From positions 1 to 64,000 of the forward strand of contig NZ_MPZV01000004.1 in assembly GCF_002020355.1 (NCBI RefSeq): 64,000 bases of DNA. The letters are read 5' to 3'. The position numbers and the translations under genes are program-made. The stretch is from Thioclava sediminum. Its GTDB lineage: Bacteria; Pseudomonadota; Alphaproteobacteria; Rhodobacterales; Rhodobacteraceae. The notes under the pieces are model-generated. The model saw only the letters and a program-made list of their open reading frames with translations. It made no database searches and was not told the origin of the DNA. Shown here in pieces: positions 4,743 to 30,716 of the stretch. The first letter of the stretch is position 1; every line of letters starts with the position of its first letter.

Positions 4743-5855
4743 ATGGCGACCACTGGCAAGCAACTGTTCACGACGCTGGAGGCAGACGGTACGCTCACCG
4801 TCGCGATCGAGGACGTGGACTTCCCCGATCCGACCGGCAATCAGGTCCTCGTGAAGATGGAGGCGGCCCCGATCAATCCGTCGGACCTCGCCATCCTCGT
4901 CGGCGCGGCGGATATGGAGAACGCGGAATATTCCCCCGGCAAATTCGTGGCCAAGATGCCCGAGCCGTTCAACGCGGGTTCGAAAGCACGGCACGGCCTC
5001 AAGCTGCCCGCCGGGAACGAAGGTGCAGGCACCGTTGTCGCGACCGGTGACAGCGACGCGGCCAAGGCGCTGATGGGACAACGCGTGTCCTGCGTGCCGG
5101 GCAACGCCTACAGCCAATATTGCATCGCCGATGCGCAGATGTGCCTGCCGCTGGGCGATCACTCCTCCGAGGAGGGCGCGAGCGCCTTCGTCAATCCGAT
5201 GACCGCGCTGGGGTTCGCCGAGAACGCCAAGATGGATAAGCAGGACGCGATCCTGCACACGGTCGGGGCGTCGAACCTCGGCCAGATGCTGACCCGCATC
5301 TGTCAGGAGGACGGGCTCGGACTGGTCAATATCGTGCGCAAGGACGATCAGGTCGATCTGCTCGAGAAGATCGGATCGACCCATGTCGTGAACTCGTCGC
5401 AGGATGACTTCATGCAGAAACTCAGCGCCGCGATCGACGACACCGGCGCGTTCTACGGCTTCGACCCGATCGGCGGCGGCCACGCGGTCGACAACGCCTT
5501 CAAGGCGATGGAGCAGGTCGCGGTGAGCCGGATGACGGAATACTCGCGCTACGGCTCGAACCAGCCCAAGCGGATGTTCATCTACGGTCGGCTCGACACC
5601 GGTCCGACGACGCTTTCCCCGAGCTATGGCTTCGGCTGGACGCTGTCGGGCTGGCTGCTGTTCCCGTTCCTGCAAGCGGCGGGGCAAGAAACCGTCGGCC
5701 GCATGCGCAAGCGCGTGCGCGACAATCTCACCACCACCTTCGCCAGCCATTACAAGACGCACGTCAATCTCGACGAGATGCTGACAAAGGAAGCCGTGAC
5801 CGATTACCGGAAGATGAAGACCGGAGAGAAATACCTCGTGACCCCCTGGTCCTGA
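4743..5855 (+). CDS. MDR-family zinc-type/quinone oxidoreductase
   Basis: 370 aa medium-chain dehydrogenase/reductase. The N-terminal GroES-like domain contains the NPSDLAILVG segment and LPAGNEGAGTVVATG. The nucleotide-binding half carries HTVGASNLGQM, an Ala/Gly-loop variant of the AXXGXXG motif. The structural and catalytic zinc-ligand cysteines of alcohol dehydrogenases are not evident, which favours the quinone oxidoreductase/enoyl reductase side. It would reduce a quinone or enone with NADPH. The ATG at 4743 follows GGAGATCGAC; the longer in-frame start at 4632 has no such support. Confidence 0.8.
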   Translation: MATTGKQLFTTLEADGTLTVAIEDVDFPDPTGNQVLVKMEAAPINPSDLAILVGAADMENAEYSPGKFVAKMPEPFNAGSKARHGLKLPAGNEGAGTVVATGDSDAAKALMGQRVSCVPGNAYSQYCIADAQMCLPLGDHSSEEGASAFVNPMTALGFAENAKMDKQDAILHTVGASNLGQMLTRICQEDGLGLVNIVRKDDQVDLLEKIGSTHVVNSSQDDFMQKLSAAIDDTGAFYGFDPIGGGHAVDNAFKAMEQVAVSRMTEYSRYGSNQPKRMFIYGRLDTGPTTLSPSYGFGWTLSGWLLFPFLQAAGQETVGRMRKRVRDNLTTTFASHYKTHVNLDEMLTKEAVTDYRKMKTGEKYLVTPWS

Positions 5856-20436: not shown

Positions 20437-21654
20437 GTGACACCAAAACCCCGGACCAGATGGCTCATTCTCATCCTGATCGGCCTGATCGCGGCGGGCG
20501 CTATCGCTGCGCTGCTTTGGCCGCAGCCGCAGACCGTCGATATGGGCGAGGTCACGCGCGGCCCGATGAAGCTCGTGATCGAGGATGATGGCCGGACCCG
20601 CGTGAGCGAAAGCTACACCGTCTCGACCCCGGTCAGCGGCAGGCTGCAACGGCTCGATATCCATGTCGGCGATCATGTCGTCGCGAATGAGACGGTCGTC
20701 GCCCGGATGCGCCCCGCCCTGCCCGCCGTTCTGGATGCGCGCAGCCGGGCGCAGGCAGAGGCCGCGCTGGCCGAGGCTCAAGCCGCGCTGAGCGCCGCCG
20801 AGGGCGATTACCGCGCCGCCGTCGCGATGCGCGAACAGGCCGATAGCGATCTCGCGCGGTCGCAGCGGCTCGCGCTTTCGGGCACGATCAGCCAGTCCAA
20901 GCTGGACCGCGATCAGATCAATGCCGATTACGCCACCGCGCAGGAAGCCGCGGCGAAAGCTGCCATCGCGATGCGCGAGGCGGCGCTGGCCTCGGCGAAA
21001 TCCGTGCTGCAGAACGATGCCGCCGCGAACAACAGCGACGGGGTCGAGCCGATCCCGCTTTATGCCCCCGCGACCGGAACGGTGCTGCAAATTCTGCAGG
21101 AGAACGAGACCGTGCTCTCTGCGGGCTCCCCGATCATGGAGATCGGCGACATCTCGGAGGGGCTCGAGGTGGTGGCCGATCTTCTCTCGCGCGATGCGGT
21201 GCGCGTGCGCCTCGGCGATCCGGTGGAGATCACCGATTGGGGCGGGCCGGATGTGCTGGAGGGCAAGGTGGTCCGCATCGATCCGTCGGGCACGACGAAG
21301 GTGTCCGCCTTGGGCGTCGAGGAGCAACGCGTCGGCGTGGTCATCGCCTTCACCGGCGATTCCGCGCAGCGGGCCGGTCTGGGCCACGGCTTTCAGGTGA
21401 CCGCCCGGATCGTGGTATGGCAGAACCCCGACGCGCTGCGGGTGCCGTCGAGCGCCCTGTTCCGGCGCGGCACCGGCTGGGCCGTCTTCAAGGTCGAGGA
21501 CGGGCGCGCGCGGGAAGTGAACGTGAAAATCGGGACCGACAATGGCACCTATGCCGAGCTTCAGGACGGCCTCAGCGAGGGCGACAAGGTCGTACTCTAT
21601 CCGGTCGAGACGCTGGAAGACGGCGCACCGGTGGAGGCCCGATCCGGCGGTTAA
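20437..21654 (+). CDS. HlyD/MacA-type periplasmic adaptor (membrane fusion protein)
   Basis: 405 aa with a GTG start 4 nt after the permease stop. One N-terminal membrane anchor (about 8-28) is followed by a biotinyl-lipoyl half-motif, a long Ala-rich coiled coil (about 95-185), and a beta-barrel and membrane-proximal region (about 230-395). This is the architecture of HlyD/MacA-type adaptors. It links the FtsX permease to the outer membrane or periplasm. No outer-membrane TolC partner is encoded here. Confidence 0.92.
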   Translation: MTPKPRTRWLILILIGLIAAGAIAALLWPQPQTVDMGEVTRGPMKLVIEDDGRTRVSESYTVSTPVSGRLQRLDIHVGDHVVANETVVARMRPALPAVLDARSRAQAEAALAEAQAALSAAEGDYRAAVAMREQADSDLARSQRLALSGTISQSKLDRDQINADYATAQEAAAKAAIAMREAALASAKSVLQNDAAANNSDGVEPIPLYAPATGTVLQILQENETVLSAGSPIMEIGDISEGLEVVADLLSRDAVRVRLGDPVEITDWGGPDVLEGKVVRIDPSGTTKVSALGVEEQRVGVVIAFTGDSAQRAGLGHGFQVTARIVVWQNPDALRVPSSALFRRGTGWAVFKVEDGRAREVNVKIGTDNGTYAELQDGLSEGDKVVLYPVETLEDGAPVEARSGG

Positions 21655-21780
21655 GTTGCGCCTCACGCCCCGCCCCAACCACCTCGCGAGGAATCACGAA
21701 GCCGCACGAAAAGCGCACCAACCGATCAAAGATGCTTGGGGCATCGCCCAAAAAGCCATCACTTGAGAGTTTTTTGCGCC

Positions 21781-21816
21781 CAAATGCCAAGCGGGTCGCA
21801 ATCCGGGCGGCATTTG
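21781..21816 (+). terminator. Hairpin between adaptor gene and guanidine riboswitch
   Basis: CAAATGCC (21781-21788) pairs with GGCATTTG (21809-21816) across a 20-nt loop that can itself pair partly. It probably separates the export operon from the riboswitch operon. No T-tract follows. Confidence 0.4.
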
Positions 21817-21867
21817 CCCCCTCTCCACCTTTGGAAACGCACCAAGGTCATGCCCGAATGAGGGCGC

Positions 21868-21972
21868 AGGGCGCTTAGGGTTCCGTTGCCGACAAGGCAG
21901 GTCTGGTCCGAGAAGTGCCACCCACGCGGCAAATTCCGTGCGGGCACACGGCGGGCCAAAATCCCGGGAGAT
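21868..21972 (+). ncRNA. Guanidine-I (ykkC class) riboswitch
   Basis: The conserved ykkC-aptamer blocks occur in order: CTTAGGGTTCCG (21874-21885), GGTCTGGTCCGAGA (21900-21913), ACACGGCGGG (21946-21955) followed by CCAAAA, and TCCCGGGAGA (21962-21971). Spacing between blocks is normal for the family. It senses free guanidinium and turns on the downstream operon (ABC importer, GdmH-like hydrolase and His-rich proteins). The expression platform in 21973-22060 is not obvious: GACCCGC/GCGGGTC can pair there (21987-22021) but no T-run follows, so translational control is possible. Confidence 0.95.
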
Positions 21973-22068
21973 TACTGCGCAGGTTTGACCCGCGCCTCAT
22001 CTCTTGTTCCGCCAGCGGGTCGGCCTCTACGCCATAGAAAGGCGGGACGCATGCCAACGGGGAAGACC

Positions 22069-23136
22069 ATGACCAGAACGAAATTCCTGTCCGCCACGGC
22101 CCTCAGCTTGGGCGTTATCGCCGCCTCTCTCTCGCCCGCGATGGCCGAGCAGAAAACCGATTTCAAACTCGCATGGTCGATCTATGCCGGCTGGATGCCC
22201 TGGGGCTATCTGGACAGCTCGGGGATCATGGACAAATGGGCCGAGAAATACGGCATCACCGTCGATATCGTTCAGATCAACGACTACGTGGAATCGATCA
22301 ACCAATACACCGCGGGCGGCTTCGATGGCGTCTCGGCGACGAACATGGACACGCTCTCGATCCCGTCGGGCGGCGGCGTCGACACGACCGCGCTGATCGT
22401 CGGCGACTATTCCGACGGCAATGACGCGATCATCTCGAAGAAAGCGACCTCGATCGAGGAGCTGAAGGACACCAAGGTGAACCTCGTCGAGCTGTCGGTC
22501 TCGCATTACCTGCTGGCGCGCGCGCTCGATAAAGCCGGGCTGGCCGAGAAGGATCTGGCCGGCGTGGTGAACACCTCCGACGCCGACATGATCGCCGCCT
22601 TCGCGACCCCCGAGGTCGAGACCGTCGTGACTTGGAACCCGCTGGTGTCGGAAATCCTCGATTCCAACCCCGATGCGAACAAGCTCTTCGACAGCTCGCA
22701 GATCCCGGGCGAGATCCTCGATCTGATGGTGGTGAATACCGAGACGCTCAAGGACAATCCCGATTTCGGCAAGGCCGTGGTCGGCGCCTGGTATGAGGTC
22801 ATGTCGAAGATGGCCGCAGGCGACGAAGAGGCCCTGACCGCGATGGCCGAGGCTGCCGGCACCGATCTCGAAGGCTACAAGGCGCAGCTCGCCGCGACGG
22901 CGATGTTCTACGATCCGGCCAAGGCGGTCGAGCAGGCTTCGAGCGCAGAGATGCCCGAGACCATGACCACGGTCGCGAACTTCCTGTTCGACAAGGGCAT
23001 CCTTGGTGTCGATGCACCCTCGGCCGATTTCGTGGGCGTCGAATATCCTGACGGCAAAGTCACGGGCGACGAAGCCAATGTGAAGCTGCGCTTCGACACG
23101 ACCTACATGCAGATGGCGGCCGACGGCGCGCTTTGA
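22069..23136 (+). CDS. Guanidine ABC transporter substrate-binding protein
   Basis: 355 aa. A signal peptide (about 1-25, ending AMA) is followed by an NMT1/SsuA-like periplasmic-binding fold, opening FKLAWSIYAGWMPWGY. This is the nitrate/taurine/guanidine-type binding-protein family. The ATG at 22069 follows GGGGAAG; ATG at 22051 is an alternative. It is the first gene after the guanidine riboswitch, and it should capture guanidinium in the periplasm. It resembles the position of sll1080 in the cyanobacterial gdmH locus. Specificity is inferred from riboswitch and neighbours. Confidence 0.88.
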   Translation: MTRTKFLSATALSLGVIAASLSPAMAEQKTDFKLAWSIYAGWMPWGYLDSSGIMDKWAEKYGITVDIVQINDYVESINQYTAGGFDGVSATNMDTLSIPSGGGVDTTALIVGDYSDGNDAIISKKATSIEELKDTKVNLVELSVSHYLLARALDKAGLAEKDLAGVVNTSDADMIAAFATPEVETVVTWNPLVSEILDSNPDANKLFDSSQIPGEILDLMVVNTETLKDNPDFGKAVVGAWYEVMSKMAAGDEEALTAMAEAAGTDLEGYKAQLAATAMFYDPAKAVEQASSAEMPETMTTVANFLFDKGILGVDAPSADFVGVEYPDGKVTGDEANVKLRFDTTYMQMAADGAL

Positions 23137-23144
23137 TCTGACTT

Positions 23145-23170
23145 GCCCGGCCTTCGGGCCGGGCCCTTTT
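23145..23170 (+). terminator. Intercistronic hairpin after the binding-protein gene
   Basis: An 8-bp GC stem (GCCCGGCC with GGCCGGGC) closes a TTCG tetraloop and is followed by CCTTTT, between the binding-protein and permease genes. Such structures commonly end or stabilise part of the transcript so that binding protein is made in excess. Confidence 0.75.
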
Positions 23171-23192
23171 CCGACAATTGCCGAAAGCGCCC

Positions 23193-24005
23193 ATGCGTTT
23201 GCTCAACCGACATCCGACCCGGCCCACCGGCATCCTGCTGGCCGCGCTGCCCTTCGTGGCGGTGCTCATCGCCTATTGGATCGGCTCGGAAATCCGGCTC
23301 GCGGCGAACCCGCAAGACAAGCTTCTGCCCGCGCCCGAGACCATCATGAACACCGCCGGGCGGCTCTTCACCGAGCCGAACAAGCGTACCGGCGAAATCC
23401 TCCTCTGGGCCGATACCTTCGCGAGCCTGCGGCGTCTGGCCTTCGGTGTCGGCATCGGGGCACTGATCTCGCTGACGGTCGGGGTGGGGATCGGGTTGCT
23501 GCCTTACGTCCGGCGCGGATTGTCCAGCTTCGTCGCGGTGCTCTCGATGGTGCCGCCGCTGGCGCTGCTGCCGATCCTCTTCATCGTGTTCGGGTTGGGC
23601 GAGACCTCGAAAATCGTGCTGATCGTGATCGGCATCACGCCCTTCCTGATCCGCGACCTCTCGCAGCGGGTGCTCGACATTCCGCACGAAGAGATCGTGA
23701 AGGCGCAGACGCTCGGGGCCTCCACATGGGTCATCGCGCTGCGTGTGGTGCTGCCGCAAATCCTGCCGCGCCTGATCGCGGCCATCCGCCTGTCGCTTGG
23801 CGCCGCGTGGCTCTTCCTCATTGCCGCAGAAGCCGTCGCGGCCGAGGTCGGCCTTGGCTACCGCATCTTCCTCGTCCGGCGTTACCTCGCGATGGATATC
23901 ATCCTGACCTACGTCATCTGGATCACGCTGCTCGCCTTCCTGATCGACTTTGCGCTCAAGACGCTCTCGCGCAAAGCCTTCCCGTGGCTGGGAGGTGGGC
24001 TATGA
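23193..24005 (+). CDS. Guanidine ABC transporter permease
   Basis: 270 aa with six membrane helices, starting with the helix LLAALPFVAVLIAYWIG (about 14-30). The EAA-type coupling loop (AQTLGASTWVIALRVVLPQILP) is the SsuC/TauC-like pattern. It forms the membrane channel for the riboswitch-controlled importer. ATG at 23193 is preferred over a TTG 15 nt upstream. It overlaps the ATPase by 4 nt. Confidence 0.9.
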   Translation: MRLLNRHPTRPTGILLAALPFVAVLIAYWIGSEIRLAANPQDKLLPAPETIMNTAGRLFTEPNKRTGEILLWADTFASLRRLAFGVGIGALISLTVGVGIGLLPYVRRGLSSFVAVLSMVPPLALLPILFIVFGLGETSKIVLIVIGITPFLIRDLSQRVLDIPHEEIVKAQTLGASTWVIALRVVLPQILPRLIAAIRLSLGAAWLFLIAAEAVAAEVGLGYRIFLVRRYLAMDIILTYVIWITLLAFLIDFALKTLSRKAFPWLGGGL

Positions 24006-24793
24006 GCTTCGTCACCGTCCGCGATGTCTTTCAGGAATACGACGGTCGTCCGATCATCGAACGCGTCAATCTCGACGTGGCCGAGGGCGAGTTCGTCTCG
24101 ATCGTCGGCGCATCCGGCTGCGGCAAATCCACCTTCCTGCGGCTTCTGCTGGCCGACGAGACGCCCACGCGCGGGCGCATCACCGTCGATGGCGGCACGC
24201 CCGCGCGCGAGCCGGGCCGCGAGCGCGGCGTGGTGTTCCAGAAATACTCGGTCTTCCCGCATATGACGGTGCGCGACAACATCGTCGCCGCCGAGAGTTT
24301 CCCGAAAGGCTGGGGCTGGTTTCGCGGCGCGAAGCTGCGCGAGGCCCGGGCGCGCGCCGATGAGGTTCTCGAACGGATCGGGCTGGCCCATGTGGCGAAG
24401 AACTACCCCTCGACCCTCTCGGGCGGGATGCAGCAACGCCTCGCCATCGGGCAGGCGCTGCACGCGCGGCCCCGCATCCTGTTGCTCGACGAGCCCTTCG
24501 GCGCGCTCGATCCGGGCACGCGACTTTCGATGCACGAATTTCTGACGCAGCTGCGCGCTGAGACCAGCATGACCGTCTTCATGGTGACCCATGATCTGGG
24601 CGAGGGCTTCAAACTGGGCGACCGCGTTCTCGTGTTCGACAAGACCCGCTGGGATCCGGATTATCCCGAACGCTACGGTGCGACGATCACCTATGATTTC
24701 GACGCCCGCGATCACGGCATTCCGTATCAGCACATCCTCGACAAGATCCCGTCTCTGGCCGCCGCAAGCGAACCCGCGCCCGCGCCGAACTGA
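24002..24793 (+). CDS. Guanidine ABC transporter ATPase
   Basis: 263 aa. Walker A is GASGCGKST; the Q-loop is FQKYSVFPHMTVRDNI; the signature is LSGGMQQRLAIGQA; Walker B is ILLLDEPFGALD; the H-loop is VTHDLGEG. The EPFGALD motif matches SsuB/TauB-type importers. The tail after residue 215 carries a short acidic extension with a Pro/Ala-rich end. It overlaps the permease stop by 4 nt and powers the guanidine importer. Confidence 0.92.
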   Translation: MSFVTVRDVFQEYDGRPIIERVNLDVAEGEFVSIVGASGCGKSTFLRLLLADETPTRGRITVDGGTPAREPGRERGVVFQKYSVFPHMTVRDNIVAAESFPKGWGWFRGAKLREARARADEVLERIGLAHVAKNYPSTLSGGMQQRLAIGQALHARPRILLLDEPFGALDPGTRLSMHEFLTQLRAETSMTVFMVTHDLGEGFKLGDRVLVFDKTRWDPDYPERYGATITYDFDARDHGIPYQHILDKIPSLAAASEPAPAPN

Positions 24794-24896
24794 GATCAAA
24801 GTTTCACCGCGCGCGCCGCTGGGCCCCGCGCGCGGGCCGCCGCCAAGGTCCAGACAGCCTGCCCCGATCCGGGGCTTCGATAGATTGGAGACAGAG

Positions 24897-26171
24897 ATGT
24901 TCCATGACCTGCCAGGCGGGCGATCGCGCCCGCACCACCCGCAAGCGGCCATCGCGGCGCATGCCCTGCGCGAGCGCCGCCAGCACCACCCGGACCTGAC
25001 CAAGCTCGCCGGCTGGAAGGCGATGCGCAAAGAGGCGGAACTCCCCGAGGGCCGCTGGGATGAGGAACGCCGCTGGGCGCTGCGCATGGGTCTGACCGGC
25101 GCGGACAGCATCGAGGACAAGTCGATCCCGACCTTCGCGCGCGGCGAGCTGCCCCATTACGCGGGCATCAACACCTTCCTGAAAGCGCCCTATGCCGAAG
25201 ACGTGCTGGAGGTCTCGCATTACGACGCGACCGTGCTGGGCATCCCCTTCGACGGCGGCACCACCTATCGCGCGGGCACCCGCTTCGGGCCGCAGGGCGT
25301 GCGCAAGATCTCCGCGCTCTACACGCCCTACAACTACGAGATCGGCGTCGACCTGCGCGAGCAGATGACGCTCTGCGATGCGGGCGACGTGTTCACCATC
25401 CCGGCGAATATCGAGAAGAGCTTCGACCAGATCAGCCGCGCGGTCAGCCACGTCTTCTCCTCGGGCTCGCTCCCGATCATGATCGGCGGCGACCACTCGA
25501 TCGGCTTTCCCTGCGTGCGCGGTATCGCGGAATGCACCTCGAAGAAGATCGGTATCGTCCATTTCGACCGCCATGCCGACATTCAGGAAAAAGACCTCGA
25601 CGAGCGGATGCACACCACCCCGTGGTTCCACTCGACCAACCTGCCCAACGTGCCCGCAAAGAACCTCGTGCAGATCGGCATCGGCGGCTGGCAGGTTCCG
25701 CGCGAGGCGGTGAAGGTCGCGCGCGAGCGTGAGACCAACATCATCACCATGGGCGACATGGAGAAGATGGGCATCGACAAGACGATCGAGATGGCGCTGG
25801 AGATGGCGTGGGACGGCGTCGACATGGTCTACATGTCCTTCGATATCGACTCGATCGACTGCGGCTTCGTGCCCGGCACCGGCTGGCCCGAACCGGGCGG
25901 GTTCCTGCCGCGCGAGGCGCTGGCACTGGCCTCCGGCATTGCGGCCGAGGGCATCTGCGGTATGGAGCTGGTCGAGGTCGCGCCGCCCTATGACGTGTCC
26001 GACATCACCGCGCTGATGGGCACGCGGGTGATCGTGGACGTGCTGGGCTCGCTGGTCGCCAATGGCAAACTCGGCGCGCATCGCAAGCATATCGACAAGC
26101 CCGTTTCGCTGCCGCATGGCGAATTCGAGGGCAAGCGCTGGTCGAATTCCGAACCGCATAAGGTGGGCTGA
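24897..26171 (+). CDS. gdmH: Guanidine hydrolase of the ureohydrolase family (GdmH-like)
   Basis: 424 aa, longer than agmatinase (about 300) because of an N-terminal helical extension (about 1-85). Metal-ligand motifs of arginase/agmatinase enzymes are all present: GGDHS, FDRHADIQ and SFDIDSIDCGF. The motif PGTGWPEPGG replaces the usual PGTG-P-PGG and is a mark I associate with the cyanobacterial Ni-dependent guanidinase GdmH. It would hydrolyse guanidine to urea and ammonia in the cytosol. GGAG precedes the ATG. The symbol is by family resemblance and riboswitch context; biochemical proof is lacking here. Confidence 0.82.
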   Translation: MFHDLPGGRSRPHHPQAAIAAHALRERRQHHPDLTKLAGWKAMRKEAELPEGRWDEERRWALRMGLTGADSIEDKSIPTFARGELPHYAGINTFLKAPYAEDVLEVSHYDATVLGIPFDGGTTYRAGTRFGPQGVRKISALYTPYNYEIGVDLREQMTLCDAGDVFTIPANIEKSFDQISRAVSHVFSSGSLPIMIGGDHSIGFPCVRGIAECTSKKIGIVHFDRHADIQEKDLDERMHTTPWFHSTNLPNVPAKNLVQIGIGGWQVPREAVKVARERETNIITMGDMEKMGIDKTIEMALEMAWDGVDMVYMSFDIDSIDCGFVPGTGWPEPGGFLPREALALASGIAAEGICGMELVEVAPPYDVSDITALMGTRVIVDVLGSLVANGKLGAHRKHIDKPVSLPHGEFEGKRWSNSEPHKVG

Positions 26172-26174
26172 GCC

Positions 26175-26663
26175 ATGCCGCATGATCACGCCCCCCACGG
26201 GCACCATCACCACCACGATCACGGGCACAGCCACGGGCATTCGCACGACCACGCGCATCACGGGCATGGCCATAACCACGCCCATGGCGAGCATCTGCAC
26301 AGCCACATGCATCACGAGGACGAGGCGGCGGACCTGCAGGTTCTGGCCACCCAGTTCATCGACGGCTTCATGCAGGCCTCCGACAAGACGAGCTATCTCA
26401 AGCTCGCGGGCGTTCCCTTCGAGCGTCCTTCGTCCACGGGGCCGAAGTCGCTGAAACTCGTGGATGTGGAGCTGAAGACCGAATGGCAGGTGGGCACCGC
26501 CTCGCCCTCCTTCGGCTCGCGCGAATTGTCCTACCTTCCGTTCCCGGGCGAGATGGTCCGCGAACGCACCAACATGTCGCTGATCTACGTGTCGATGGAC
26601 GAGAAATCCGTCCTCGACATCCGCGACTTCCTGACTCAACGCAAGAAAGAGATCGACCAATGA
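26175..26663 (+). CDS. His-rich protein, candidate metallochaperone of the guanidine operon
   Basis: 162 aa. Residues 1-47 contain 25 histidines in alternating HxH runs, interspersed with Asp, Gly and Ser, and then an acidic link (EDEAAD). The C-terminal domain (about 50-162) starts with the helix LQVLATQFIDGFMQAS and ends DEKSVLDIRDFLTQRKKEI; I do not recognise it. The protein has no signal peptide, so it should act in the cytosol where GdmH is. A His tail of this kind usually binds Ni or Zn. It starts 3 nt after the hydrolase stop and overlaps the 54-aa gene. A role in loading Ni into GdmH is inference. Confidence 0.75.
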   Translation: MPHDHAPHGHHHHHDHGHSHGHSHDHAHHGHGHNHAHGEHLHSHMHHEDEAADLQVLATQFIDGFMQASDKTSYLKLAGVPFERPSSTGPKSLKLVDVELKTEWQVGTASPSFGSRELSYLPFPGEMVRERTNMSLIYVSMDEKSVLDIRDFLTQRKKEIDQ

Positions 26664-26824
26664 AGACGACCTTCGCAACGCTTCTGGGCGCAACGCTCGC
26701 CAGCCCCGCCCTCGCGCATTCCGGCACGCAATTCCATACCCACGGAGTCGAGCCGATGCTGATCGTCGGCGTCGCCGCCCTCGCGGTCTATGGCATCGTC
26801 GAATTCGTCAGATCGCGCCGCTGA
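26660..26824 (+). CDS. 54-aa secreted/membrane peptide with His cluster
   Basis: 54 aa. A signal peptide-like segment (about 1-19) ends ALA, followed by a short His cluster (HSGTQFHTHG), then one hydrophobic helix (about 33-50) and a basic end (VRSRR). It overlaps the His-rich protein by 4 nt (ATGA), so it is the last gene of the guanidine operon. It could bind metal at the outer face of the inner membrane. No family is recognised, and the function is unknown. Confidence 0.65.
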   Translation: MKTTFATLLGATLASPALAHSGTQFHTHGVEPMLIVGVAALAVYGIVEFVRSRR

Positions 26825-26867: not shown

Positions 26868-27581
26868 TCACTCCGACTCCCCGAGCCCCGCAAGCTTTCG
26901 CATATGCCACGCCAGCGCCTGGTTCGAGCTGAGCACCGGCATCCCGAGCTCCGCCTTCAACTCCGGCAAAATCCCCCGCGTCCGCAGGTTGGTGCAGGAC
27001 AGGAAAATCCCGTCCAGCTTGGCCTGCCCCGCAAGGTTCCGCGCCGCCTCCGCGATCGAGGCCGGATCGATCCGCGCCACCCGCGCCTCAACCTCCTCGC
27101 CGAAAGACAGCGTCGCGGGGACGGTGATCCCCGCGGCGACAAAGGCCGCCCGCAAAGGCTCCGCGACCGAGGCGACATAGGGCGAGACGATGCCCACGCG
27201 CTCCAGCCCAAGATCGGAGATCGCAGCCAGCGCGGCGCTCAGCGGATCGGTCACCTGCTGCGTCGTGACGCCCGCCATGACATTCGCCCGTACCTCGCCC
27301 GGCCCGATCAGCGCTGCGCCCGAGGTGCAGCCATAGCCCACCACATCGAACTTCGCCGCAGGCGGCAGCAGCGCCGCCGCGCCGCTCAGCGCACGCTCCA
27401 TCTCGGCGATGCTCGACGGGGTCAGGTCATCGCCGGAATGGACGCGCGTGACATGCATCCGCGCGTCGCCCGGCGGGATGTAGCTGCGGAATTCGTCCTC
27501 GATGGTCTCGTCCACGCGCAGCACGATCAGCCCCATCGTTGGCGTGGCGTCTTCGCGAAGGCGATAGGGGAAATCGGCCAT
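26868..27581 (-). CDS. EutA-like Asp/Glu racemase-superfamily protein
   Basis: 237 aa. This is the maleate isomerase/arylmalonate decarboxylase/EutA branch of the Asp/Glu racemase superfamily. Two catalytic cysteines lie in YGCTSGAALIG and FLSCTNLR. The ATG at 27581 shares 1 nt with the stop of the M24 gene. In ectoine loci EutA has an unsettled role in hydroxyectoine breakdown. It is last gene of the ehu-like operon. Confidence 0.78.
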   Translation of the reverse strand: MADFPYRLREDATPTMGLIVLRVDETIEDEFRSYIPPGDARMHVTRVHSGDDLTPSSIAEMERALSGAAALLPPAAKFDVVGYGCTSGAALIGPGEVRANVMAGVTTQQVTDPLSAALAAISDLGLERVGIVSPYVASVAEPLRAAFVAAGITVPATLSFGEEVEARVARIDPASIAEAARNLAGQAKLDGIFLSCTNLRTRGILPELKAELGMPVLSSNQALAWHMRKLAGLGESE

Positions 27582-28756
27582 CAGTTCAGCTCCGGCAGGG
27601 TTTCGGGGGCGCGCGGCGACAGCAGTTCCGCCCCGGTCGCACGCAGGACGATGTTTTCCTCGTGGACCAACAGGCGGCGCAGGCCATCCGCAGTCTCGAC
27701 CCACGCGCCGGGTTCCAGCGTCAGCACCATGCCCTCGCGCAGTTCGGTGCCGTCGCGCGGGGTGAAGGAGGGCCATTCCGTCAGGGTGATCCCCAGCCCG
27801 TGCCCCAAGCGCCCGCCGCCCGCCGCGACACCGCGCGCCGCCAGCCCCTCGACCAGCAGACGATGCGCATCATGCGCCCGCATCCCGGGCCGCAGCTGCG
27901 CCATCACCGCCTCGGTCACCTCCCACAGCGCGGCATGGGTGCGCCGCACCGGATCGGACACCGGGCCGACCGAGAAATTGCGATCGAAGTCGCAGAAATA
28001 CCCGTCGCGCACCGCGCCGGTATCCAGCATCAGCACGTCGCCCACCTGCAGCGGCTCGGGCCCGGCAGGCGAGATCACATCGTCATAGCCCGATGGCCCC
28101 GCCGCCCCGGCGACATAGCTGACCCAGTCGGCCCCCTCCTCCAGAAGCGCGGACTGGAAGGCGCGGAAAATCCCGTCGAGCGGACGCCCCTGCCCCGCGA
28201 ATTCCGGCACCCGCGCGAAGGCACGGCCCGCAATGGCGCAGGCCATGCGGATCTTCTCGATCTCCGCCGCGCTCTTGATCTCGCGCACCCGCTGGATCGC
28301 GGCGGTGCCGTCGACGAAGCGCCGCGGCGCGATACGCTCCCCGAGCCGCGTGAAATCCGCGAGCGGCATCCGCAGATGCGTCTCCAAGCCCATCGGCACG
28401 CCGATCCGCGCGCTCTCGGGCAGCAGATCGCAGAGCGTCTCGGCAAGCAGGCTCACCCCGTCATCCGTCGGATCGGGCGCCTCCCAAGTGCGGACCTGCG
28501 TCATCCATGTGCGGCCCATCAGTTCCGCCCCGATGGAGGGGATCACCGCGACCGGCGCACCGCTGGCCGGAACGATCACGAACCACGGGCGCGCGGGGCT
28601 TTCCCAGAACCGGGTCAGGAAGCCCGTGACGTAGAAGATATCCGCAGCCGAGGTCAGGAACAGCGCATCCAGACCCTGTGCGCTCATTTCGGCCTGCAGG
28701 CGAGCGACGCGGGTGCGAAACTCCTCGGCCGGAAAGATGAGCGAGCGCTCAGCCAT
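27581..28756 (-). CDS. M24 metallohydrolase (EutD/DoeA ectoine-hydrolase-like)
   Basis: 391 aa. N-terminal creatinase-like domain (about 1-150), then a pita-bread M24 domain. The metal ligands are visible: two Asp around LMLDTGAVRDGYFCDFDR, His in RLGHGLGITLTEWPS, Glu in VLTLEPG and Glu in LLVHEENIV. The run from GHGLG to the C-terminal end ELLSPRAPETLPEL closely resembles ectoine hydrolase DoeA/EutD. It would open the ring or amide of an ectoine-like compound in the cytosol. It overlaps the upstream PLP enzyme by 8 nt (ATGGCTGA). Confidence 0.82.
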   Translation of the reverse strand: MAERSLIFPAEEFRTRVARLQAEMSAQGLDALFLTSAADIFYVTGFLTRFWESPARPWFVIVPASGAPVAVIPSIGAELMGRTWMTQVRTWEAPDPTDDGVSLLAETLCDLLPESARIGVPMGLETHLRMPLADFTRLGERIAPRRFVDGTAAIQRVREIKSAAEIEKIRMACAIAGRAFARVPEFAGQGRPLDGIFRAFQSALLEEGADWVSYVAGAAGPSGYDDVISPAGPEPLQVGDVLMLDTGAVRDGYFCDFDRNFSVGPVSDPVRRTHAALWEVTEAVMAQLRPGMRAHDAHRLLVEGLAARGVAAGGGRLGHGLGITLTEWPSFTPRDGTELREGMVLTLEPGAWVETADGLRRLLVHEENIVLRATGAELLSPRAPETLPELN

Positions 28757-29795
28757 CTTCCGGGCCTTCGCTGAGGATCGCCAACACGCGCGCCTCGGGG
28801 TCAAGCGACAGCCCGGCAAGCAGAGCCGCCAGCCCGGCCCCGCCCGAAGGCGTCGTGGCCAGCCCGTGTGCTGCGAGGATATCGACGCCGGACTGCGCCT
28901 CGGCTTCGGTGATCGTGGCGAAGCGATCCGCATCGCGCGACAGACCCGCCAGCGCCACCATCGACGGCGTCTTGCAATCGAGCCGCCCCATCGCCGAGAC
29001 CGGCCCTTCCGTGCTCACCAGATGGCCTGCGCGAATGCTCTCGATCAGCGCAGGCGCCGCATCGGGTTCGACCACGATGATCTCAGGCCCGTCACCCCAA
29101 GTGAGCCGCGCATGCGCCGCGACGGCGGCCGCCAGACCGCCGACCCCCGCCTGCAGCAGGATATGGGTGGGCGGCGCGTCGATCTGCGCGACGGCCTCGG
29201 CGGCAAGCTGGGTGTAGCCCTCCATCACCCGCAGCGGCAGATCGACATAGCCCTCCCACGAGCTGTCCGACAGAAGCGTCCAGCCATTCTCCGCGGCGGC
29301 TGTCTCGGCGGCCTCCATGCTCGCTTGATACTCCGCGCCAGCCCGCACGACCTCGGCCCCGCGTGCCTCCAACCGTGCGGCGAAGGCGGCGGGCACGGTC
29401 TCGGCCAGATAGATGATCGCGCGGGCCCCGAAAATCCGCGCGCCTGCCGCGACCGAGAGACCGTGGTTGCCTGCACTGGCCGCGACATAGGTCTCACCGG
29501 AGAGGGCCGTTTGCAGGTCACCACCCTCGGCGCGCGCCGCCGCCTCCCGGGCGATCGCATGGACCGCGCCCAGCGCCTTGAAGCTGCCGAGCCCCATCCG
29601 CTCACGCTCGTCCTTGATCCAGACCTCGCCGACCCCGGCGCGCTCCGCAATTTCGAGCGCCGCGCGCAGCGGGGTCTCGCGATGTGCCGGACATTGGGCA
29701 AGCAGGCTGGCCACGCCCGAGGCGTCCGCGATGGGCTGAACACCCTCCGGGTCGAGCCCGTCACCGCGCCAGGGATTGTCTATGATGATCGGCAT
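28749..29795 (-). CDS. Diaminopropionate ammonia-lyase-like PLP enzyme
   Basis: 348 aa fold-type II PLP enzyme. The PLP Lys lies in GLGSFKALGAVHAI; SAGNHGLSVAAGARIFG is the phosphate/carboxylate-binding loop; and LLSDSSWEGY and THILLQAGVGGLA are hallmarks of diaminopropionate ammonia-lyase (DpaL) rather than of threonine dehydratase. The family turns 2,3-diaminopropionate into pyruvate and ammonia. Ectoine loci instead carry EutB, a threonine-dehydratase-like enzyme, at this position. GAGGGG precedes the ATG at 29795. The true substrate is unknown. Confidence 0.8.
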   Translation of the reverse strand: MPIIIDNPWRGDGLDPEGVQPIADASGVASLLAQCPAHRETPLRAALEIAERAGVGEVWIKDERERMGLGSFKALGAVHAIAREAAARAEGGDLQTALSGETYVAASAGNHGLSVAAGARIFGARAIIYLAETVPAAFAARLEARGAEVVRAGAEYQASMEAAETAAAENGWTLLSDSSWEGYVDLPLRVMEGYTQLAAEAVAQIDAPPTHILLQAGVGGLAAAVAAHARLTWGDGPEIIVVEPDAAPALIESIRAGHLVSTEGPVSAMGRLDCKTPSMVALAGLSRDADRFATITEAEAQSGVDILAAHGLATTPSGGAGLAALLAGLSLDPEARVLAILSEGPEDG

Positions 29796-29897
29796 ATCGG
29801 CCCCTCGCTGCGATGGAAGCAGGCCCATAAGGCAACGAGACGTCCGCGCACGCAATGACCTTTTCAGACAGGCCATTGCGCGACATCGTGAGGCGCG

Positions 29898-30716
29898 TCA
29901 GTCGGCCTCTTTCACCGCCGAGAGGAATTGCTGCGTACGCTCTTTCTGCGGGTTGCCGAAGAGATCCTCGGGGGCGCCCTGCTCCTCGATCTTGCCGTCG
30001 AAGAAGAAGCAGACCCGGTCCGAGATGTCCTTCGCGAAGCCCATCTGGTGCGTCACCATCAGCATCGTCAGATTGTGCTTCTCCACGAGCGACCGGATCA
30101 CATTGGTCACCTCGCCGATCACCTCCGGATCGAGCGCGGAGGTCACCTCGTCGAACAGCATCACCTTGGGACGCATCGCCAGCGCCCGCGCGATTGCGAC
30201 GCGCTGCTGCTGACCGCCCGAAAGCCGCGAGGGATGCTGGTCGCGCTTGTCGGACATGCCCACGAGCTCCAGCAGTTCTTCGGCCCGTTCGCGCGCCTCG
30301 GCCTTCTTCATGCCCAGAACCTGCACCGGCCCTTCCATGCAATTCTCCAGCGCGGTCATATGCGGGAAGAGGTTGAAATGCTGGAAGCACATGCCGATCT
30401 GGCTGCGGGCCTTGCGCAGATATTTGCGGTCCGCAGGCACCAGCTTGCCGTTTTTCTCCATATGGGTCAGCGGCTTGCCGTCCACGTAGATCACGCCCTC
30501 GTTGATCGTCTCGAGCGTCATCAGCATCCGCAGCACGGTCGTTTTGCCCGAGCCGGACGGGCCGATGATCGTGACCATTTCCCCCTCGGCCACGTCGAGA
30601 TCGAGCTGGTCGAGCACCACCAGATCGCCATAGCGCTTGGTGACTTTCAGGAACCGCACCATCGGCACATTGTCGCCCGTCAGTTCGAGCGGATAGTTCG
30701 AAAGGTCTTCCATCAT
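29898..30716 (-). CDS. ehuA: Polar amino acid/ectoine ABC transporter ATPase (EhuA-like)
   Basis: 272 aa. Walker A is GPSGSGKTT; Q-loop FQHFNLFPHMTALENC; signature [14 protein letters not shown]; Walker B VMLFDEVTSALD; H-loop VTHQMGFAK. The EVTSALD motif and end match polar amino acid ATPases such as GlnQ/HisP/EhuA. It overlaps the EhuD-like permease by 4 nt. It powers the importer. The symbol rests on the EutD/EutA neighbours and importer gene order, so it is tentative. Confidence 0.88.
   Translation of the reverse strand: MMEDLSNYPLELTGDNVPMVRFLKVTKRYGDLVVLDQLDLDVAEGEMVTIIGPSGSGKTTVLRMLMTLETINEGVIYVDGKPLTHMEKNGKLVPADRKYLRKARSQIGMCFQHFNLFPHMTALENCMEGPVQVLGMKKAEARERAEELLELVGMSDKRDQHPSRLSGGQQQRVAIARALAMRPKVMLFDEVTSALDPEVIGEVTNVIRSLVEKHNLTMLMVTHQMGFAKDISDRVCFFFDGKIEEQGAPEDLFGNPQKERTQQFLSAVKEAD

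Follow-up and report, generated by a model that had tools for sequence, protein, structure and literature searches.

The stretch of DNA analysed here, hereafter called the window, comprises 64,000 nucleotides (nt) of the genome of Thioclava sediminum, an alphaproteobacterium of the order Rhodobacterales (contig NZ_MPZV01000004.1). It contains an operon that is headed by a Guanidine-I riboswitch and encodes an ATP-binding cassette (ABC) importer, a guanidine hydrolase (GdmH), a histidine-rich protein called HISR in the following, and a peptide of 54 amino acids (aa). In the alphaproteobacteria examined, HISR is a fixed partner of gdmH, and its possible role in supplying nickel to the enzyme is the subject of the present analysis. 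The features of the operon are listed below with their coordinates in the window and their strand.

21864..21972, + strand: Guanidine-I (ykkC) riboswitch aptamer (RF00442, 80.2 bits for a gathering score of 63, E 1.1e-12, whole model 1-107)
22069..23136, + strand: periplasmic substrate-binding protein of the NMT1/SsuA type (TIGR03427, 510 bits for a cut-off of 333.9; NMT1_2)
23193..24005, + strand: ABC permease (BPD_transp_1, 71.9 bits; the top NCBIfam match, TauC, is under its cut-off)
24002..24793, + strand: ABC ATPase (ABC_tran, 121.5 bits)
24897..26171, + strand: GdmH-type guanidine hydrolase, or guanidinase (arginase family, 254 bits; 7esr, 549 bits; 9fek, 539 bits)
26175..26663, + strand: HISR, His-rich N-terminus followed by a conserved core of ~115 aa, directly 3' of gdmH (no relative in Pfam, NCBIfam or the PDB)
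26660..26824, + strand: 54-aa peptide (by eye, a signal peptide, a mature N-terminal His with HxHG, one transmembrane helix and a basic tail)

The genes all lie on the strand of the riboswitch, in the order binding protein, permease, ATPase, gdmH, HISR and 54-aa gene. The permease and ATPase genes overlap by ATGA, as do the HISR and 54-aa genes, and the stop codon of gdmH is 3 nt ahead of the HISR start. When the whole window was scanned with Rfam covariance models, the RF00442 match was the sole one above its gathering score. A search of the + strand at 21650-22150 revealed no terminator-like site, and a terminator was therefore rejected as the expression platform; no unusual folding was detected downstream of the aptamer (z 0.25). 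Control of the operon by guanidinium would be exerted through this Guanidine-I riboswitch. The locus was compared with those of a sample of 292 genomes of the order (order sample), where gdmH was called at E ≤ 1e-100 and HISR at E ≤ 1e-50. A Guanidine-I riboswitch above cut-off is present in 28 of the 28 genomes carrying gdmH, and the order from binding protein to HISR is identical in 26 of the 26 other loci fetched within the order. Thus, the arrangement is not a matter of chance. In genome G229, a second Guanidine-I riboswitch is located apart from the gdmH operon, on contig C11 (C11:33894-34002).

The closest solved relatives of the product of 24897-26171 are the enzymes of Synechocystis (7esr/7oi1, 549 bits) and of Nitrospira (9fek, 539 bits), followed by a guanidinobutyrase at 171 bits. 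The 7esr and 7oi1 entries carry the label agmatinase 2; together with 9fek, they correspond to the guanidinases of Synechocystis and N. inopinata (PMC11410670). The agmatinase equivalog TIGR01230 is matched at 167.3 bits, below its cut-off of 174.3. This value and the gap between 549/539 and 171 bits ruled out an agmatinase or another ureohydrolase. The metal ligands, the Thr and Trp for guanidine specificity and the other residues named for guanidine hydrolysis were taken from the description of the Nitrospira enzyme (PMC11410670) and placed by motif. The ligands are H200, D224, H226, D228, D316 and D318, and the residues for guanidine hydrolysis T122, H239, W330 and E360. All ten are identical in 81 of 81 sequences, from the window and the 80 loci described below. 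Judging from the bit scores with structure entries and from these residues, the enzyme of the window is predicted to hydrolyse guanidine. By analogy with the characterised relatives, it may depend on nickel. As the crystal of the N. inopinata guanidinase contains one Ni and one Mn per subunit (PMC11410670), a mixed Ni/Mn centre is also possible in the window enzyme.

The linkage to the riboswitch indicates that the substrate of the importer is probably guanidine. TIGR03427, the family of the binding protein, bears the NCBIfam title 'putative urea ABC transporter', and the same linkage suggests that this family, or part of it, transports guanidine. At one annotated plasmid locus of the operon, the product labels are 'agmatinase family protein' for the enzyme and 'putative urea ABC transporter' for the binding protein; such annotations are worth correcting. 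An earlier note on this DNA, made from the letters alone, had set the riboswitch at 21868-21972, which agrees within 4 bases with the RF00442 match. It had also recognised the NMT1-type importer, whose binding protein, permease and ATPase are all supported by Pfam and NCBIfam, a GdmH-like ureohydrolase, for which the agmatinase alternative was excluded as described above, and the His-rich protein and the 54-aa peptide, now confirmed at 26175-26663 and 26660-26824.

The association of HISR with gdmH was examined at 80 named loci. These come from a scan, by means of a GdmH alignment, of genomes taken at one per species, and are the best 80 of at least 561 GdmH relatives, ranked by likeness to the GdmH of Sinorhizobium fredii; they partly coincide with genomes of the order sample. 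Their flanks extend over ~6 kb per side, with less than 5.5 kb upstream in 5 loci and downstream in 9 (one in both), so that 13 of the 80 are shorter on one or both sides. HISR was searched for with a profile of 29 previously retrieved members and was found directly downstream of gdmH in 80 of the 80 loci. The two genes are separated by at most 25 nt in 73 of 80 cases and overlap in 34, the largest gap being 185 nt; these distances depend on start codons chosen by the analyst. According to the record titles, the loci belong to Rhizobiales, Rhodobacterales, Rhodospirillales, SAR116 and Kordiimonadales, and to one metagenome-assembled genome (MAG) called as Anaerolineae. Sinorhizobium, Mesorhizobium, Roseibium, roseobacters and SAR116 are among the taxa concerned. 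The Anaerolineae-called MAG (L123) contains an alphaproteobacterial-looking gdmH-HISR pair, its GdmH being 76% identical to the S. fredii query; either transfer or mis-binning may account for it.

Loci with a reduced operon tell with which component HISR is associated. In eight loci with ~6 kb of upstream sequence, no permease was matched and HISR is kept. Four of them (L087, L088, L089 and L098) have the riboswitch directly ahead of gdmH. The others, L155, L158 and L160 from SAR116 and L164 from an alphaproteobacterial MAG, gave no match to a permease and no riboswitch over threshold. Hence, HISR belongs with the enzyme rather than with the importer or the riboswitch. Outside the order, a riboswitch scan of 17 of the 80 loci was positive in 11 and negative in 6. 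Among the latter, L139 and L123 have a short upstream sequence, and no riboswitch over threshold occurs within ~6 kb at L155, L158, L160 and L164. At these four loci, the enzyme alone provides the link to guanidine, and other control and uptake must serve.

Counts in whole genomes give a consistent picture. In the order sample, 28 of the 292 genomes carry gdmH, and 27 of these 28 also carry HISR; in the remaining one (G291), the contig of 4981 bases stops inside gdmH, whose match reaches base 4979. Lowering the requirement to E ≤ 1e-3 gives HISR matches in 33 genomes of the order, the six extra ones being weak; five of these score 20.7-24.2 bits (G077, G111, G180, G213 and G253), and the sixth is discussed below. 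A phylum sample of 398 genomes has gdmH in 7 and HISR in the same 7, all from the window's own class. HISR occurs in 13 of the 385 genomes of a class sample, the window's own included, and gdmH is directly upstream in 10 of the other 12; the two exceptions are G989 and G771. The three samples overlap and their counts are not additive. The operon is thus patchy in the order (28/292) yet spread across Alphaproteobacteria, and the earlier suggestion that it may be common in Rhodobacteraceae needs correction in this sense. In G989 (L176/L178), the riboswitch and the start of the binding-protein gene run straight into HISR, as a consequence of either a deletion of importer and gdmH or a misassembly.

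Beyond Alphaproteobacteria, the gdmH sample consists of four actinobacterial plasmid records, in which no HISR, HypA or HypB was found in the stretches around gdmH. Three of these four records were searched whole; none had HISR and one had HypA far from gdmH. On the plasmid of Rubrobacter indicoceani (L067), the gene after gdmH encodes a sodium:solute symporter, genes for formamidase and urease lie further on, and neither HISR nor HypA/HypB was found in this neighbourhood. This may be another guanidine arrangement.

In the window, HISR has 162 aa, with 25 His that are all in residues 1-48, and no Cys; its conserved core contains 0 His and 0 Cys. It matches no family of Pfam or NCBIfam, in particular neither HypA (PF01155) nor a HypB-type GTPase domain, and a search of PDB sequences with the HISR profile gave no relative (best E 0.42). 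An assignment to HypA, HypB or another known family was rejected on these grounds. Across 81 members, only weak and scattered matches were obtained; those to nickel/cobalt efflux families, each in 3 of 81 with E values of 0.0025 or worse, are read as matches to the His tail. The AlphaFold model of the window protein has a predicted local confidence (pLDDT) of 93-98 per ten-residue block from residue 51 onward. It shows a core made of two helices, six strands and a C-terminal helix. In a rhizobial HISR, modelled from a separate alignment, these elements follow one another in the same way, the last helix being short. The mean pLDDT of the two models is 84.5 and 76.9, and their core blocks reach 90-98.

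Conservation follows the same division, the core being conserved and the His-rich tail variable. D70, P111 and P124 are invariant. Near-invariant positions are mostly hydrophobic residues, Gly, Pro and Tyr of the core together with R131, and H33, N34 and H40 of the linker, although the exact string GHN occurs in just 63 of 80 proteins. The number of His per protein varies from 1 to 33 (median 17 over the 80 loci). At least 4 His within 15 residues are found in 78 of 80 proteins, and in L109 the His run is C-terminal. In this respect the earlier note, which spoke of a His-rich protein, calls for correction, since it is the core domain that is conserved. Pairwise distances between HISR cores correlate with those between GdmH sequences with r = 0.86 and with those between permeases with r = 0.645; controlling for the permease leaves a partial correlation of 0.75 between HISR core and GdmH (72 rows, from the window plus 71 loci). 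Since related sequences are not independent, these values bring support and are not to be read as a probability.

The absence of HypA and HypB from the operon, claimed in the earlier note, was borne out, as none of the six operon proteins matches either of them in Pfam or NCBIfam. The survey that it had proposed, looking for hypA/hypB versus the His-rich gene next to gdmH, gave the following outcome at the 80 loci. HISR is present in 80. With the sequences of the window's own genome as single tblastn queries, which can miss divergent copies, HypA was found in 0 and HypB in 1; the latter match is in fact UreG, at 243 bits compared with 42 for HypB. At the level of the genome, HypA exceeds the Pfam cut-off (PF01155) in 5 of 27 gdmH genomes, each time with a HypB-type GTPase match beside it. 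In the other 22, no HypA over cut-off was found; they include G035, which has a weak match below cut-off, and G088, a close relative with a 96% identical GdmH. Thus, another loading route would be needed in these 22 genomes, where a contribution of HypA/HypB to GdmH is unlikely.

Other genes related to nickel were observed. A cobW-family match of 114-138 bits, taken as UreG-like, occurs in 27 of the 27 gdmH genomes, that of the window's genome being near urease. The urease alpha subunit is likewise encoded in all 27, the window's own urease lying at ~69-73 kb of C2. A HupE/UreJ-type gene is found at 12 of the 80 loci, directly after HISR in 10 and upstream of the riboswitch in 2 (L088 and L089). 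Three of these proteins were scored on PF04955 and pass at 153-169 bits, namely those of L085, which is one of the 12, and of L066 and L081, which are outside the 80. Short peptides similar to the 54-aa one follow HISR at 32 of the 80 loci, according to a pattern requiring an AxA-His signal, with a single hydrophobic stretch, and at 13 of 26 Rhodobacterales loci as judged by eye. No locus of the 80 has both a short peptide and HupE. HupE of Pfam is not matched by the window peptide nor by two of its relatives, and a shared role of the peptide and HupE is a guess.

Considering these data, the operon is probably one of guanidine-induced nitrogen assimilation, for which the following mechanism may be envisaged. 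Binding of guanidine to the riboswitch would turn on expression of the operon. The ABC importer would bring in guanidine, and GdmH would hydrolyse it, yielding urea and ammonium; the nitrogen left in urea would be released by urease, whose genes lie in another part of the genome. The HISR core probably docks on GdmH or on an unassembled GdmH subunit. The His-rich tail would be a store of Ni2+, variable in size, from which the ion would pass to the active site, HISR having no HypB-type GTPase of its own in this scheme. The 54-aa peptide, or HupE at some other loci, probably helps nickel to cross or gather at the inner membrane.

The metformin hydrolase operon carries hypA, hypB and hupE, and in the window HISR follows gdmH; HISR therefore sits in the place of hypA/hypB. 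The earlier note had proposed this position for the His-rich protein, and the proposal is upheld by the 80 loci of alphaproteobacterial type, in all of which HISR immediately follows gdmH. From the genomic pattern, we infer that HISR, with fair probability, replaces HypA/HypB as a nickel donor or assembly factor of the guanidinase that works independently of a GTPase. A more ambitious proposal can be put forward only tentatively, with chances somewhat short of even. HISR might represent a new class of nickel metallochaperones, with an unrecognised fold, a His reservoir of variable size and GTPase-free loading, forming a nickel line with HupE or with a one-helix peptide bearing a periplasmic His across guanidine-using Alphaproteobacteria. 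Genetic linkage, His content and co-variation are the basis of this proposal.

Several observations weigh against the donor model. Foldseek found no match in the PDB at E ≤ 0.001 for either HISR model, so that the donor role has no backing from a known chaperone fold. No His or Cys is near-invariant in the core, which thus shows no sign of a metal site. Nor do all members have a His-rich tail, as L154 has 1 His and L164 has 5. HISR sequences also occur without the enzyme: an orphan fragment without gdmH is found in G771, and the sixth weak match mentioned above, in G012 (L028, 1489-2016), represents what is left of the HISR C-terminus, gdmH being absent from this genome. This remnant is a sign that loss of the operon removes both genes. 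As for membrane components, 36 of the 80 loci lack both HupE and the short peptide. Comparison of the mature 54-aa peptide with mature HupE by hhalign gave a probability of 5%, their likeness being limited to the signal region; the idea of a shortened HupE, suggested by the shared signal and mature start, was not borne out. With 91 of 101 order genomes encoding it, urease is not enriched with gdmH, and enrichment was dropped as a supporting argument. The N. inopinata guanidinase obtained from E. coli without chaperone is active with a low nickel content (PMC11410670). Together with the Ni/Mn crystal, this activity indicates that a loader may be dispensable, and likewise nickel as the only metal.

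The window's own genome must be counted among these points, as it holds HypA and HypB at C2:290057-291213 (HypA at C2:290878-291213). By eye, the surrounding genes resemble those for HypD and a [NiFe]-hydrogenase large subunit, and the HypB frame also has a His-rich stretch. The UreG-like GTPase chaperones and these HypA/HypB could serve GdmH, and a contribution of HypA/HypB is possible in this genome. The earlier note had named hypA/hypB acting from elsewhere on the genome as a point against its view; the genes do exist, beside hydrogenase-like genes. Its statement that another route of loading must exist cannot be derived from this genome alone, and is better drawn from the 22 of 27 genomes without HypA.

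Other explanations deserve consideration. HISR might be a structural or regulatory subunit of GdmH, acting on hexamer stability or gating activity, with a tail serving as a nickel store or without any specific function. Conservation of the core rather than of the tail, its tracking of GdmH, the existence of a few almost His-free members and the activity of the N. inopinata enzyme without chaperone are in line with such a subunit. However, the His cluster is kept in 78 of 80 members, a HupE-type gene is near in 12 of 80 loci, and the N. inopinata guanidinase is a homohexamer like the Synechocystis enzyme, no further subunit being mentioned in the available part of the article (PMC11410670). On balance, we consider a subunit role unlikely. 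It may also be imagined that general chaperones, either UreE/UreG or, where present, HypA/HypB of the hydrogenase-like cluster, load GdmH and that HISR only buffers nickel for both enzymes. If HISR were a mere buffer, its strict attachment to gdmH, seen in 80 of 80 loci, would not be expected; moreover, HISR is absent from 391 of 398 genomes, those without gdmH, though 91 of 101 order genomes have urease. A buffering role is quite improbable in view of these facts, even if a UreG-like GTPase match and urease alpha accompany gdmH in 27 of 27 genomes and HypA/HypB in 5 of 27, including the window's own.

Finally, HISR could protect the cell from metal or guanidine, as a nickel sink or a guanidinium-binding protein, and not act on GdmH. 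His-rich tails are common in metal storage proteins, and the weak nickel/cobalt efflux-family matches, each in 3 of 81 members, go in the same direction. Protection would explain neither the strict position after gdmH even where no permease is matched nor the closer tracking of GdmH than of the permease by the HISR core, and its likelihood appears very small. We thus retain the nickel donor or assembly factor as the best explanation.

Next to the operon and convergent to it, at 26868-30716 on the - strand, the window contains a cluster resembling those for ectoine uptake and utilisation. An EhuA ATPase is matched there at 410 bits, over cut-off, and proteins resembling diaminopropionate/threonine ammonia-lyase, M24 peptidase and EutA are matched below the cut-offs.

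In a comparison with known systems, HypB, UreE, SlyD and the like combine, as HISR does, a flexible His-rich stretch with a folded domain. HISR differs from such nickel chaperones in that it has no match to a GTPase domain, a family or a fold. The riboswitch, the importer and the enzyme are of known kinds, whereas the HISR family lies outside the libraries searched and is new here. No His-rich partner of guanidinase was described in the literature titles and abstract openings searched, a mention in Funck 2022 (on Synechocystis GdmH) being possible.

In Synechocystis, the gdmH operon comprises sll1077, hypA/hypB homologues, an ABC importer and a Guanidine-I riboswitch (PMC12186494, PMC8390497), and the guanidinase is nickel-dependent and aided by accessory nickel proteins (PMC12186494). 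In marine picocyanobacteria, hypA/hypB are also in the same cluster as the guanidinase (PMC10119275). The window shares with Synechocystis the riboswitch class, the ABC importer and the kind of enzyme, including the metal and specificity residues named above. In contrast, hypA/hypB are missing from the window operon, and HISR and the 54-aa membrane peptide follow the enzyme. The metformin hydrolase operon (MefH/DmgH), which encodes a related nickel ureohydrolase, contains hypA and hypB, then the enzyme genes and hupE (PMC11399263). It resembles the window in associating a ureohydrolase with accessory genes, HupE being downstream in the MefH/DmgH operon; metformin/dimethylguanidine hydrolase is however heteromeric and uses hypA/hypB, not HISR. 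In comammox Nitrospira, no nickel chaperones are near the guanidinase, and how nickel is loaded is described as unclear (PMC11410670). There, as in the window, a GdmH-type enzyme is under a Guanidine-I riboswitch with no chaperones nearby, but uptake involves an APC permease instead of an ABC importer, and no His-rich partner is mentioned in the available part of the same article, a search of these genomes for HISR not having been made. HISR is a direct candidate for a role in nickel loading. The alphaproteobacterial locus is a third arrangement, beside those of cyanobacteria and of comammox Nitrospira.

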